A DNA stretch of 64,000 nucleotides from Flavobacteriales bacterium (GTDB taxonomy: Bacteria; Bacteroidota; Bacteroidia; Flavobacteriales_D; Crocinitomicaceae), in the NCBI GenBank assembly GCA_947380375.1, contig CANCQX010000002.1, positions 1 to 64,000 on the forward strand, given 5' to 3'. Below, piece after piece: positions 46,654-58,424 of the stretch. The notes beneath the pieces are model-generated. The model was given only the letters and a program-made list of their open reading frames with translations. It was not told the DNA's origin and did no database searches. A program made the translations under genes and the position numbers. Every line of letters begins with the position of its first letter. Position 1 is the first letter of the stretch.

Positions 46654-46734
46654 TTCGGATATCTAATATCCTTTTCAATAATTCGACTTGATCCCGAACT
46701 GACACCAACTCAAGAGAAAAAACAACAGACATAA

Positions 46735-46764
46735 AAAAAGTCCTTCATTTCTGAAAGACTTTTT
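46735..46764 (-). terminator. tRNA-Gln terminator (left copy)
   Basis: AAAAAGTCCTTCA (46735-46747) pairs with TGAAAGACTTTTT (46752-46764) with one wobble position, loop of four bases. In the minus-strand RNA the odd pair is U-G and a U run follows. Confidence 0.8.
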
Positions 46765-46765
46765 G

Positions 46766-46838
46766 TTGACCCACTAGGGCTCGAACCTAGACTCTTCTAT
46801 ACCAAAAACAGACGTGTTGCCAGTTACACCATGGGTCA
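46766..46838 (-). tRNA. tRNA-Gln (anticodon UUG), left copy
   Basis: A 73-base cloverleaf. Acceptor TGACCCA pairs with TGGGTCA, D-stem GTGT with ACAC, anticodon stem TCTGT with ATAGA around the loop TTTTGGT (anticodon TTG), and T-stem CTAGG with CCTAG around TTCGAGC. The discriminator base is A and CCA is not encoded. It is identical to the copy at 58100-58172. Its -35-side sequence comes from the element, so expression of this copy is uncertain. Confidence 0.95.
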
Positions 46839-46849
46839 ATTTGTGAGGA

Positions 46850-46857
46850 CAAAGTTA
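46850..46857 (-). promoter_or_regulatory. -7 box TAACTTTG of tRNA-Gln (left copy)
   Basis: Exact TAnnTTTG match 11 bases upstream of the mature tRNA 5' end, inside the direct repeat; sequence beyond 46867 differs from the right copy. Confidence 0.55.
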
Positions 46858-46964
46858 GAAACAAAATAGTCCTAGAACCACCAAATCAATTCCATAGGGA
46901 ACCACTAACAGACTTTCTTGCAATGAACATAGTTTGGATATATTTTGTCTGAACCGTGCATACC

Positions 46965-47020: not shown

Positions 47021-48244
47021 ATGAAAGTTACCTTTAGACAAAAGGCAGGCATGCATTACCTATTTGCCGACATTAGTGTTTCAAGTATCCGTATCCAAAC
47101 TGCATTAGGAATATCCATTAAGCAGGGAAAATTCGTAGAGAAAATTCAGGGAGTACAGGGTGAGTCAGACATCGAAACTAATATCTTGTTGAACAACTAC
47201 AAATCAGAAATTCTCGCACTCATTCGCACATTACAAATCAATGGTAAGTTGAGTAAAGATGCAATTAGAGATGGAGTTAAACTCATTCGTGAACGTTTAA
47301 TCAATGCTGATTTTACACCTGTAGAAGAGAAGAGTTTTACAACGTATATTCAAAATTTCATAGACAGAAATAGTGGAATACGAAAACCTGCAACATTGAA
47401 ACAGTACAACAATAGTTTAGTAAAATTAAAAGCCTACGAAACCAAAATGAGAGTGAAATTGACTTTCGACAATATCGACTACGTGTTTTACAACGCATTT
47501 TTGACCTACTGCATTAAGGATTTGAAACTATCTAGTAATAGTATAGGAAACATCATCAAAGGAATAAAATTGTGGATGAATTCTGCACACGAAGAAGGTT
47601 TACATACCAATGTTGTATATTCAACAAGGTCATTTAAAAAGCCTGCTGAAGCATCAGAAAATATCTATTTGTCTGAAGCAGAATTGAAAACCTTGAAGAC
47701 AACCATAATGCCCAATAAACATTTGGAATTTGTTAGAGATTTCTTTCTCTTGGCTTGTTACACTGGTGTACGTTCACAAGATTACTCCAAATTGAACAAA
47801 AGCAATCTTATCAATGATGGGAAAATGTTCAAAGTTCGTACAGAAAAAACAGATGAAGAAGTTATCATCCCTATCCACCCTGAAGCAAAACGCATATTGG
47901 AAAAGTACAACGGAACACCAAAAACAATCTCCAATCAAAAGTTCAATGAGTACATTAAAATTGTTTGTGAAATTGCAGGATTAGACGAAATGATTACACT
48001 TTCAATGACTGTTGCAGGGAAAAGAGTGAGTACCACAAAACCCAAATTCAAATGCGTTTCTTCACATACTGCTCGTAGAAGTTTCGCTACTAATGCATAC
48101 AAAGCAGGTGTTCCATCTTTGGCAATAATGGCGATTACTGGACATCGAACAGAAAAGGTGTTTCTACATTACATTAAGGTAACTAAAGAAGAACACGCAA
48201 TGTTGTCTAGTGAGCATCCATTCTTTGCATTTAGAACTGCATAA
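47021..48244 (+). CDS. Tyrosine recombinase/phage-type integrase
   Basis: A 407-residue site-specific recombinase. The N-terminal arm-binding domain (about 1-95) is followed by a SAM-like core-binding domain (about 100-195: FTTYIQNFIDRNSGIRKPATLKQYNNS, in pieces) and the catalytic domain. Active-site residues visible are Arg in ACYTGVRSQDY (about 250), HTARRSFATNAYKAG (HxxR, about 350), GH in AITGHRTEKV and the nucleophile Tyr in VFLHYIKV (about 384). It lies just inside the left repeat, as expected for the enzyme that integrates the element into the tRNA-Gln site. Confidence 0.96.
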   Translation: MKVTFRQKAGMHYLFADISVSSIRIQTALGISIKQGKFVEKIQGVQGESDIETNILLNNYKSEILALIRTLQINGKLSKDAIRDGVKLIRERLINADFTPVEEKSFTTYIQNFIDRNSGIRKPATLKQYNNSLVKLKAYETKMRVKLTFDNIDYVFYNAFLTYCIKDLKLSSNSIGNIIKGIKLWMNSAHEEGLHTNVVYSTRSFKKPAEASENIYLSEAELKTLKTTIMPNKHLEFVRDFFLLACYTGVRSQDYSKLNKSNLINDGKMFKVRTEKTDEEVIIPIHPEAKRILEKYNGTPKTISNQKFNEYIKIVCEIAGLDEMITLSMTVAGKRVSTTKPKFKCVSSHTARRSFATNAYKAGVPSLAIMAITGHRTEKVFLHYIKVTKEEHAMLSSEHPFFAFRTA

Positions 48245-48253
48245 ATGATCAAC

Positions 48254-48454
48254 CTACCTTAACTCACCAATACTGACACCAAAGTAATCAGCCAATTTGC
48301 ATAGAGTAGTATAAGAAACGTCACGGGTACCTTGTTCGATGCGAGCAATGTGTATTCCTGTATCATTCAATACCTGTTCTTGCGTAACATTTTTAGCCTT
48401 TCGAAGCCCTTTTAATTTCGCTGCAAGATTGCGTAATATCTCTTTGTTTTCCAT
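48254..48454 (-). CDS. Small XRE-family repressor of the element
   Basis: A 66-residue protein that is essentially one helix-turn-helix domain: LAAKLKGLRKAKNVTQEQVLND, then TGIHIARIEQGTRDVSYTTLCKLADYFGVSIGEL. It converges on the integrase (9-base gap) and diverges from the RadC-like gene. The candidate operator TTACCCTATGGTAA (48490-48503) lies 35 bases before its start, and a second similar site lies at 48995. It probably represses itself and the RadC/cargo promoters. Confidence 0.92.
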   Translation of the reverse strand: MENKEILRNLAAKLKGLRKAKNVTQEQVLNDTGIHIARIEQGTRDVSYTTLCKLADYFGVSIGELR

Positions 48455-54000: not shown

Positions 54001-54309
54001 TTGAAAATCTCAAATCAACTGCATAAAATTGCAGTATGCAATGAGAAAATTATCAAAAAACTCTTGATTGCTGACATAAAACACAATCAACTAATTAATG
54101 GATTATACAACATCGGTCTAATGGATAATGATAAATACACATTGAATTTAGACTTTGTTGTTGCAGAATTGTTAGGTATCAAAAATAAAAATGTCCCCGA
54201 TGAATGGTTAGATACCTACCACGGAACAATGCTAAATCTTCAATCTACAATGACAGATGATGAAATTGTTTTGTTCGTGGATGATTTATACAATCGTTTG
54301 AAAATATAA
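54001..54309 (+). CDS. Hypothetical protein, 102 aa, TTG start
   Basis: Helical soluble protein (ISNQLHKIAVCNEKIIKKLL, then VAELLGIKNKNVPDEWLDTYHG and DDEIVLFVDDLYNRLKI). It starts at TTG 54001; the only alternative ATG would remove nearly half of the protein. Unknown family. Proteins of this size and position in Bacteroidota elements are often accessory to the replication genes that follow, but that is inference. Confidence 0.55.
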   Translation: MKISNQLHKIAVCNEKIIKKLLIADIKHNQLINGLYNIGLMDNDKYTLNLDFVVAELLGIKNKNVPDEWLDTYHGTMLNLQSTMTDDEIVLFVDDLYNRLKI

Positions 54310-55378: not shown

Positions 55379-55837
55379 ATGGTGCCGAATTATTTTAATC
55401 CGGTTAATATGGAAAGAAGTCTAAACAAACAAATTGTAGAAGCCACGAACGGTGGCTTAGAAATCTTCAAAAAGTATGTGAATACTGAATTTGAAGTAGA
55501 TGTTATATCAGTAGTTGATGAACATCGAAAATTTACAGTTAAGTGGAATGCACATTATCAAAACTATGTTTTGTATTTAGATGAGTGTATAGCAGATAAG
55601 TGGTGTAAAAACACTAAAAGGTATAATGGAATATACTTTGTCCAAGATAGATTTGGACTCAATAATAATGAAGCACTCCGCAAAATAGATTCTGAATTGA
55701 ATCTTGGGTTTTTTAGTACTCCTGAGTTAACAATTTTGAATGAAGAGTTAGATGCCAATTTAGATAATAAAATGGCAAAAAATGAATTCTTAAGAATTTC
55801 TTTAGGATTTAAGTCTAGTAATGAAAATCAAAATTAA
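55379..55837 (+). CDS. Possible primase zinc-domain-like protein
   Basis: A 152-residue protein; ATG 55409 (MERSLNKQIVEATNGG) is an equally good start. The middle segment KWCKNTKRYNGIYFVQDRFG followed by LNNNEALRKIDSELNLGF resembles the N-terminal part of phage/element DNA primases, where a small zinc domain leads to a helix with EAL..ID..LNLG. Only two Cys remain, so zinc binding is doubtful. It lies 5 bases upstream of the DUF3987 gene, supporting a replication role. Confidence 0.55.
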   Translation: MVPNYFNPVNMERSLNKQIVEATNGGLEIFKKYVNTEFEVDVISVVDEHRKFTVKWNAHYQNYVLYLDECIADKWCKNTKRYNGIYFVQDRFGLNNNEALRKIDSELNLGFFSTPELTILNEELDANLDNKMAKNEFLRISLGFKSSNENQN

Positions 55838-55842
55838 TTATT

Positions 55843-57354
55843 ATGGAAAAAGAAAATGACACAAAAAACATTTCTGTAGAGAATGAAATAAAATTGGAAG
55901 ATATTTCAATATCATCACTATTGCCAATTCTTGAAGGTGAAAAGAATGAGGAAGAACTAACTACAGTCGATTCTGTCGAAGTCGAAACTATTCAAGAAAC
56001 TAATTTGAGTATTAGTGAACAGGCTGATATCGACAAATCGACAATTTCGACAACATCTTTTGAAGAAGAAAATGAAGAAGATAATTTTGATGAAGATGTT
56101 GAATTAGCTTTTAATTCGTATGAAAAGCTACCTGATTTCTTTCAAGAGATTTGTTCTTGCTTTGATGAAAAAGACAGATTGATGATGTTATTAAGTAGTA
56201 TTACTGTTGTGAGTAGCATATTGCCAAAAGTATATGGAGAATATGATAGAATGAAAGTCTATTCTAATTTATTTTTGTATGTAACGGGAAATGCAGGTTC
56301 AGGTAAAGGAAATATGACTTGGGCAAAAAAACTTACTTCAGTTATAGAAAGTAATATTAAACTAACAAATGAAAATTCAAAACTAGTAGCATCAATTTTA
56401 TTGCAAGGTGGTAAAATAGAAAGTCTATTCCCAAGCGATCAAATCAGTATCCCTGGAAATAGCAGTACTGCAGGGATAACACAATTGCTTGAAAAACAAA
56501 ATGGTAATGGTTTGATATTTGAAACTGAAGGAGATACGATTGGTAATGTTTTTAGACAAGAATTTGGTAATTATTCAGATCTTTTGAGAAAAGCATTTCA
56601 TCACGAACAAATTTCCCAATATCGCAAAACAAATGAACAATTTACAAATATAAATGAGCCAAAAGTTTCAGTTTTAATATCAAGTACACCTAGTCAATTG
56701 AAAAGTATAATTCAAAGCCTTGAAAATGGTTTATTTAGTAGATTTATGTTTTTTAATACTTCACCTATTAATGAATTTCTTGATGTTTTCAAGAAAAATG
56801 AAAATAATAGAGCTGAAATTTTTGATAAAAAAGCCGAAGAATTGCAAGTTTTATTTCTTAAATTAAAAGAAAGTGATGGAATAAAGATTTCATTGACGGA
56901 GCAGCAGCAGAAAAAATTTGTCGAAAAGTGTAATTTAAATAAATCTATACTTACAAATTTAATTAATCAGGATTTAGATGCAACAGCGAATCGTATGGGG
57001 TTAATAATGTTTCGAATTATGATGGTTTTAACAGGTATTAGAAATAAAACAGAAATAATTTCAAATGAACTTTTGTGTAATGATGATGATTTTGCATTGA
57101 CATTAGAGTTAGCAGATGTTCTTTTAAATAATGCAGTTGAAACAATTAAAATGTTACCGAAATCAGGAGGAATTATTTCGAATGAATCCAGAAATAAATT
57201 ATTTCAAATGTTGCCAAATGAATTCACAACAAAGGAAGCTAAAACACTTGGCGTTCAATGTGGTGTAGCAGAGAGGTCAATAGACCGTTTTTTGAAATCG
57301 GCTTTATTTGAAAAGTTAGAACATGGAGTATGGAAAAAGTCAATTTCAAAATAG
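55843..57354 (+). CDS. DUF3987 replication-type ATPase
   Basis: A 503-residue protein of the DUF3987 family found in Bacteroidota elements and phages, usually with primase genes. An acidic, low-complexity N-terminus (1-85) precedes the core. The Walker A motif is GNAGSGKGN (about 148-156), the acidic Walker B-like segment is LIFETEGDTI (about 224-233), and SVLISSTPSQL and GLFSRFMFFN carry sensor/arginine-type residues. A C-terminal winged-helix-like end (TTKEAKTLGVQCGVAERSIDRFL) follows. It probably acts as a replicative or initiator ATPase. Confidence 0.88.
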   Translation: MEKENDTKNISVENEIKLEDISISSLLPILEGEKNEEELTTVDSVEVETIQETNLSISEQADIDKSTISTTSFEEENEEDNFDEDVELAFNSYEKLPDFFQEICSCFDEKDRLMMLLSSITVVSSILPKVYGEYDRMKVYSNLFLYVTGNAGSGKGNMTWAKKLTSVIESNIKLTNENSKLVASILLQGGKIESLFPSDQISIPGNSSTAGITQLLEKQNGNGLIFETEGDTIGNVFRQEFGNYSDLLRKAFHHEQISQYRKTNEQFTNINEPKVSVLISSTPSQLKSIIQSLENGLFSRFMFFNTSPINEFLDVFKKNENNRAEIFDKKAEELQVLFLKLKESDGIKISLTEQQQKKFVEKCNLNKSILTNLINQDLDATANRMGLIMFRIMMVLTGIRNKTEIISNELLCNDDDFALTLELADVLLNNAVETIKMLPKSGGIISNESRNKLFQMLPNEFTTKEAKTLGVQCGVAERSIDRFLKSALFEKLEHGVWKKSISK

Positions 57355-57358
57355 TAAT

Positions 57359-57390
57359 GTCGCTTTGTCGTTTTGTCATTTTGTCGAAAT
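57359..57390 (+). repeat. Four 8-bp repeats after the DUF3987 stop
   Basis: GTCGCTTT, GTCGTTTT, GTCATTTT and GTCGAAAT are in phase directly after the stop codon, before the terminator. Confidence 0.6.
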
Positions 57391-57432
57391 TGCAATGTAG
57401 TATAAATTAACATTCTAATTAAAATCAGAATT

Positions 57433-57461
57433 AGCCTTATCTTAAATGATAGGGCTTTTTT
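57433..57461 (+). terminator. Intrinsic terminator of the DUF3987 gene
   Basis: AGCCTTATC (57433-57441) pairs with GATAGGGCT (57448-57456) with one U-G pair, 6-base loop, then a T run. Confidence 0.8.
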
Positions 57462-57487
57462 GTGCAATCAAACTTATTTCACTAGTC

Positions 57488-57574
57488 TTCCTAACATAAT
57501 TGCTTCGTGTCCCCCCTATAGTCTTCCATTAACCATACCCAAAAAGGGGGGACCCAAATCAATTATGTTAGGAA
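57488..57574. other. Large inverted repeat, candidate origin or oriT
   Basis: Outer arms TTCCTAACATAATTG (57488-57502) and its exact complement (57560-57574) enclose a 6-by-6 internal loop. Inner arms GTCCCCCC (57509-57516) and GGGGGGAC (57546-57553) follow, with a 29-base loop. It is GC-rich inside a very AT-rich element, noncoding, and near the right end. Such structures serve as nicking sites, single-strand origins or protein-binding hairpins; an RNA role is also possible. Confidence 0.75.
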
Positions 57575-57605
57575 CATACCCAATGCTAACCCAAATTACA
57601 AATAT

Positions 57606-57700
57606 CCCCACCCTGAAAGCTTAGTCTTACTTACTCCCCATGTCAATCTTTTGGGCGAAAAATCCTTATTCTACAAATTTCTAGGCTTTGTGGGGTGGGG
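57606..57700. other. Second inverted repeat in the same noncoding tail
   Basis: CCCCACCC (57606-57613) and AAAGC (57616-57620) pair with GCTTT (57685-57689) and GGGTGGGG (57693-57700) around a 64-base loop, with a small unpaired bulge. Together with the previous structure it fills most of the 415-bp gap 57355-57769; nothing coding is seen there. Confidence 0.6.
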
Positions 57701-57769
57701 TACATTTTTGCACAGCTAATCGGATGGCTTGAAAATCCGTGTTTTTATACAATTTAATACCAATATTTT

Positions 57770-58006
57770 ATGAAGAATTTAGTTTATGCCGAGCTTATGG
57801 GTTCAGTAACAATGGAAATGATGATTGACAGACGTTTGTTGATCTTGAGTGACAATGGAATTTTTATCATTACATTCGAAGACAACGCGGTCAATTATCC
57901 TAATGAAACATTTTGTGATGTTTGTGAAGAAGCGATTAGTGATTATGAAATTGAAATTAAGAATGGTCGTATCATTTCAAATGCAAACACAAGAACTGAC
58001 TTTTGA
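57770..58006 (+). CDS. Hypothetical protein, 78 aa
   Basis: A small acidic protein, unrecognised, with beta-rich sequence (RRLLILSDNGIFIITFEDNAV) and a Cys pair CDVC (about 50-53). It lies between the inverted repeats and the right terminal repeat. Its coding-like composition and ATG support it, but no homologue is known to me, so it may be spurious. Confidence 0.45.
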   Translation: MKNLVYAELMGSVTMEMMIDRRLLILSDNGIFIITFEDNAVNYPNETFCDVCEEAISDYEIEIKNGRIISNANTRTDF

Positions 58007-58068
58007 ATACTGTGTTAAATTCCGTATTAACACAAATTTATCCTCTTTTTAAAAACCAACACGCATAA

Positions 58069-58098
58069 AAAAAGTCCTTCATTTCTGAAAGACTTTTT
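58069..58098 (-). terminator. tRNA-Gln terminator (right copy)
   Basis: Same stem as at 46735-46764, two bases beyond the tRNA 3' end. Confidence 0.8.
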
Positions 58099-58099
58099 G

Positions 58100-58172
58100 T
58101 TGACCCACTAGGGCTCGAACCTAGACTCTTCTATACCAAAAACAGACGTGTTGCCAGTTACACCATGGGTCA
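58100..58172 (-). tRNA. tRNA-Gln (anticodon UUG), right copy
   Basis: Identical in sequence to the left copy (acceptor TGACCCA/TGGGTCA, anticodon TTG, discriminator A, no encoded CCA). Its 3' end faces the element, and its upstream side faces native chromosome, so this is the copy expected to keep the original promoter. Confidence 0.95.
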
Positions 58173-58183
58173 ATTTGTGAGGA

Positions 58184-58191
58184 CAAAGTTA
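58184..58191 (-). promoter_or_regulatory. -7 box TAACTTTG of tRNA-Gln (right copy)
   Basis: Exact TAnnTTTG match 11 bases before the tRNA 5' end; upstream sequence from 58202 is chromosomal. Confidence 0.6.
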
Positions 58192-58424
58192 GAAACAAAA
58201 TTTAAATTTGAAAGAGATATTTTAATTTTTTTTAGAAAAAATAATAAAAAATGAATTTTAATATTGTATATATTTGTTTTTCAATATCTTATTTATTTAA
58301 TACTGCAATTTAACAGTTCAAAATTTACTATTGGCTCTTATTTCATATTATTTAGCGGTCAATAACTTTATAAACTACATTAAATTGTTAAATTCGCGAA
58401 CTTAAAACGTTTTATTTTTAGTAT

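Follow-up and report, generated by a model that had tools for sequence, protein, structure and literature searches.

Why does a small integrated element carry a large, non-coding hairpin close to its right end, and which step of its life cycle would such a structure serve? The element lies in the 64-kb window, by which we mean the whole stretch of DNA that was analysed (64,000 nucleotides). It is 11.5 kb in length and, besides the features given below, encodes RadC and cargo.

46730..46867: left attachment repeat, 138 bp, containing tRNA-Gln
47021..48244, plus strand: tyrosine integrase
48254..48454, minus strand: Xre-type repressor (HTH_3), opposed to the integrase
54001..54309, plus strand: conserved helical protein of ~93 aa (102 aa here), a core gene of the element family
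55379..55837, plus strand: 152-aa ORF preceding rep, with similar short ORFs in this position in other DUF3987 elements
55843..57354, plus strand: DUF3987 rep/helicase-like gene
57358..57386, plus strand: candidate Rep-dependent origin, an array of 3.6 copies of the 8-bp repeat TGTCGTTT immediately 3' of rep
57434..57461, plus strand: terminator-like hairpin and T run between rep and the hairpin studied here, as read from the sequence
57575..57769, plus strand: conserved non-coding stretch from the hairpin to the small ORF
57770..58006, plus strand: small ORF of 78 aa, the conserved partner of the hairpin, with a confident alpha/beta model
58064..58201: right attachment repeat, 138 bp, containing tRNA-Gln

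The order at the right end is thus rep, repeat array, terminator-like site, hairpin, conserved non-coding stretch and 78-aa ORF. The model of the small-ORF protein is confident, yet it found no match in PDB or BFVD, and the confident model of the ~93-aa protein found none in PDB. Among the element proteins scanned, a subset of the ORFs, no relaxase or capsid gene was recognised, nor any terS-like, interference or capsid-remodelling gene, many small proteins being left with no assignment.

A first-pass annotation of the sequence had described the structure as a 15+8 bp inverted repeat with a symmetrical internal loop. The outer 15-bp arms, their coordinates and the 6 by 6 internal loop are as it gave them, and the inner stem is one pair longer, at 9 bp.

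57488..57574, plus strand: two-stem hairpin, from inverted-repeat search, folding and covariation
57488-57502 and 57560-57574, plus strand: arms of the outer stem, 15 bp
57503-57508 and 57554-57559, plus strand: internal loop, 6x6
57509-57517 and 57545-57553, plus strand: arms of the inner stem, 9 bp (GTCCCCCCT/AGGGGGGAC)
57518-57544, plus strand: apical loop, 27 nt

The hairpin is the top-scoring inverted repeat of the 64-kb window when loops of up to 90 nt are allowed. An unbiased inverted-repeat search of positions 57355-57769 recovered the 15-bp arms, while the best shuffled sequence scored 10 and none of 60 reached 15. Folded as single-stranded DNA, positions 57480-57582 gave z-scores of -6.6 for the plus strand and -8.0 for the minus strand, and 0 of 200 shuffles were equally stable. 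The hairpin is non-coding and sits 3' of rep and the terminator-like site and 5' of the right 138-bp repeat with its tRNA-Gln, which confirms its earlier placement between the replication module and the attachment repeat. The segment had also been called GC-rich; this holds relative to its surroundings only (~42% GC against mostly ~30% in adjacent stretches). With a 27-nt loop and no T run after it, the window hairpin does not have the form of an intrinsic terminator. T runs follow the 3' arm in the relatives L030 and L031.

At the same position, three DUF3987 homologues (44-46% identity) carry a double hairpin of comparable form with different arm sequences, and the exact arm pattern had no match in the genome and viral collections. 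A hairpin model identified 11 copies at E<=7e-6, distributed over 9 genomes and 6 genera, each adjoined downstream by a small ORF of ~75 aa. Two more loci carry a weaker variant (L056, E 0.02; L062, E 0.004), and a class-wide scan of 395 genomes with the same model gave zero additional matches. Among 240 family genomes, a search with the small ORF found 20 loci, spread over 15 of them; the loci that have no hairpin are mostly relic-like, as in G006, whose copy of the same tRNA site retains the small ORF alone. Another genome of the same genus, with its tRNA-Gln at L046 1302-1375, has only the small ORF left of the element (L096 11176-11415), and the hairpin was not found in the stretch examined. 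An f9-family element in G077 (L075/L101) has a related integrase, rep and small ORF; it was left out of the count because its hairpin-like repeat did not rise above chance when searched without bias, 53 of 60 shuffles scoring equally well.

Elements bearing the hairpin mostly end at tRNA genes and measure 5.5-11.5 kb where both ends are visible; tRNA pairs at element ends are also present in L087, L088, L090 and L092. Copies of TAATCGTCC occur at L088 9126 and L090 3437, ~150-175 bp from the left tRNA and upstream of int. Matches to defence models among the cargo lie at L087 13627-14484 and L030 14614-15795 (PDC-S32; type II methyltransferase). By small ORF, the window groups with L051 (L091) at moderate support, the ~93-aa protein of the window has its highest identity to that of L091 despite different rep types, and a TAG variant of the motif TARTCTTC, described below, is common to both.

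Covariation was scored on an alignment of 11 sequences that had been fitted by hand to the structure. In this alignment 89% of cells pair and both sides have changed in 19 of 24 pairs; none of 500 shuffles matches the covariation score, and slid partners fail. Because the alignment was hand-fitted, an unbiased search was added, in which the outer stem was the best inverted repeat in 10 of 11 regions, with an arm gap of 54-63 nt. L045 is the region in which another repeat ranks higher, and, taken singly, some regions do not exceed chance (the outer stem is equalled by 0 to 9 of 60 shuffles). The comparison of homologous elements proposed in the first-pass annotation therefore came out in favour of the structure, the arms changing in compensating fashion across the 11 elements. 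The hairpin is a genuine, conserved, covarying cis-acting site. Of the 207 cells, 191 are Watson-Crick and a single one is G.U (a test that is not exact, given the relatedness of the sequences), which suggests that the structure is selected at the level of DNA.

A second conserved property of the module is a strand-specific motif, TARTCTTC. With up to one mismatch allowed, the eleven regions have 29 plus-strand copies and 0 minus-strand copies, where ~0.45 would be expected per region and strand. The window has three direct repeats of it:

57483..57491, plus strand: repeat 1, TAGTCTTCC, overlapping the base of the outer stem
57519..57527, plus strand: repeat 2, TAGTCTTCC, at the start of the apical loop
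57622..57630, plus strand: repeat 3, TAGTCTTAC, in the downstream conserved non-coding stretch

These data bear on whether the hairpin might act as RNA or as a regulatory element and control the small ORF in the manner of a structured leader or operator. It does lie upstream of the small ORF in every copy, and the stretch downstream of it is likewise conserved. However, G.U pairs are nearly absent, Rfam at the gathering cut-off matched two tRNAs only in the whole window and no family at the hairpin, and exact TARTCTTC is confined to the hairpin module within the 11.5-kb element. We consider such a role quite improbable.

The genes beside the hairpin appear to separate it from Rep-dependent replication initiation. 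TGTCG repeats with a period of ~8 bp follow rep in 5 of 5 DUF3987 elements (57358-57386 in the window), VapE elements have CCCACACT-type repeats, and HTH-type elements have GAACCAAAA/TTTTGGTTC; these motifs were picked by eye in few elements (DUF3987, n=5; VapE, n=2; HTH-type, n=3). Three CGACA repeats at 56031-56052, in the 5' part of the rep ORF, are inverted with respect to the TGTCG array; L029, L030 and L090 likewise contain CGACA in tandem, as pairs or triplets, not all of which have been placed relative to rep. Since each rep type comes with its own repeats, rep and repeats appear to be swapped as a cassette while the hairpin and small ORF are kept, constant beside all three rep types (DUF3987, VapE and HTH). 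A hairpin that stays constant while the cassette changes is probably not a Rep-dependent origin, and that origin seems to lie in the rep-type-specific repeats upstream of it. In PICIs the origin is the region immediately 3' of rep (PMC6092414), which would suit the hairpin as a Rep-dependent origin; but three rep types share one hairpin and separate repeats vary with the rep type, which makes this reading highly improbable.

A rolling-circle origin, one of the roles suggested in the first-pass annotation, is unsupported: no HUH Rep was found in the elements, whose rep proteins match DUF3987, VapE or HTH only. The same result weighs on a related proposal, namely that the hairpin is a single-strand initiation or priming site, whose folded strand would recruit a host or helper primase for second-strand synthesis whatever the type of Rep. 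The strand polarity of the motif, the folding as single-stranded DNA and the position directly after rep and its repeats agree with priming, but it would leave both the constant link to the small ORF and the phage homologue of that ORF (see below) unexplained; we regard it as rather improbable.

If the hairpin is independent of rep, it may instead be addressed by a helper. It had been suggested that the hairpin may mimic a helper oriT. In this reading, the relaxase of a helper conjugative element would nick it, as happens with integrative mobilisable elements that have no relaxase. An oriT usually contains imperfect inverted repeats and a strand-specific loop, and the hairpin has this form; moreover, the pairing is at the DNA level, no relaxase is recognisable in the element, in line with the suggestion, and a PF03432 relaxase is present in one of the nine host genomes (G047). 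On the other hand, PF03432 is absent from 8/9 and TrwC from 9/9 host genomes, these being a subset of the relaxase families, and no helper oriT with the structure was found: at the sensitivity used, 240 family genomes, 395 class genomes and the plasmid records yielded no copy other than those in the elements themselves. DNA-similarity searches against plasmids and phages gave no match. A TraM search gave zero matches; it was run with no positive control, so the zero says little. An oriT mimic thus seems unlikely and is less favoured than a pick-up site for a phage helper.

On the phage side, a small-ORF homologue (37.5% over 56 aa) is encoded on a crAss-like phage contig of 44.8 kb that also has genes for terminase, portal and major head protein. 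The sequence upstream of this homologue shows a short, weak similarity to the conserved non-coding stretch, with E-values of 0.006 by blastn and 0.84 by profile search, and contains an inverted repeat whose geometry resembles that of the hairpin and which 2 of 60 shuffles equalled. The hairpin model matched neither this contig nor any of 14 further viral contigs that had been chosen by pattern (L102-L115). The similarity may be taken as a hint of exchange with phages, short of proof of a helper. At L083 2206-2415 and L076 9280-9580 the phage small-ORF homologue lies at a divergent gene boundary and the cumulative GC skew minimum. Loop and arm pattern matches in viral contigs were rejected as they fell outside the structure, and L081, L082 and L094 are phage coding regions. 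The integron attC site, with which the hairpin shares a covarying stem, an internal loop and little sequence constraint, was dropped because its R-box motif is inconsistent between copies; moreover, no integron-type array was seen, and the elements lie at tRNA genes.

We tentatively favour, at slightly less than even probability, the reading that the hairpin is a rep-independent pick-up, or mobilisation, site for a helper, which would more likely be a phage than a conjugative element. Together with the strand-specific TARTCTTC repeats, it would form the mobilisation signal of small tRNA-integrating satellites of Bacteroidota. Int would excise the element, and Rep would then replicate it from the repeats that directly follow rep; once extruded, or exposed as a single strand, the hairpin would mark the molecule for the transfer machinery of the helper, with the adjacent ~75-aa protein as a probable partner. 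With a phage helper, the hairpin may be a packaging site or a helper-recognised start site. We infer here that the active form is DNA and that the hairpin serves pick-up, as well as the identity of the helper and the role of the 75-aa protein. Cargo matching defence-type models in relatives counts in favour of a pick-up site. Counted against it are the copy in L053/L086, which adjoins another integrase type, the copy in L050/L089, which has no tRNA nearby, and the retention of the small ORF without the hairpin in some genomes. A more specific version, which we rate as doubtful, is that the hairpin and the 75-aa protein are a dedicated packaging-recognition module, the satellites parasitising crAss-like phages and partly sharing the module with them.

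In layout, the element family is PICI-like. The window element has an attachment site (the 138-bp repeat with tRNA-Gln, at both ends) together with its own tyrosine integrase, and a minus-strand HTH repressor followed by a replication module with repeats 3' of rep, their origin role being putative. PICIs such as SaPIs (PMC6092414) are likewise small integrated elements with an integrase, an opposed repressor, a rep with repeats directly 3' and accessory genes at the end, and a capsid gene was not recognised in the family either. Unlike PICIs, the family has no recognised xis, terS or interference gene, its rep types differ, and it keeps a constant hairpin module. The PLE satellites of Vibrio cholerae also have their own initiator, and semi-palindromic repeats in their non-coding origin region bind RepA, whereas the hairpin is independent of rep type (PMC7145576). 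Relaxase-less integrative mobilisable elements of the iOriT type (PMC11389934) resemble the family in being integrative, in having no recognisable relaxase and in that both might carry a cis site alone; a helper oriT of the same structure was, in contrast, not found for the window family.

Many islands have neither relaxase nor capsid genes, and how they are transferred is often unclear; for this family, the hairpin is one candidate site. If the pick-up reading is true, the hairpin would provide a searchable cis signature for a family of small integrative elements that, in a limited literature search, appears to be undescribed. It would also mean that the origin of replication is separated from the site of pick-up in these elements, and would give a handle for identifying the helper.
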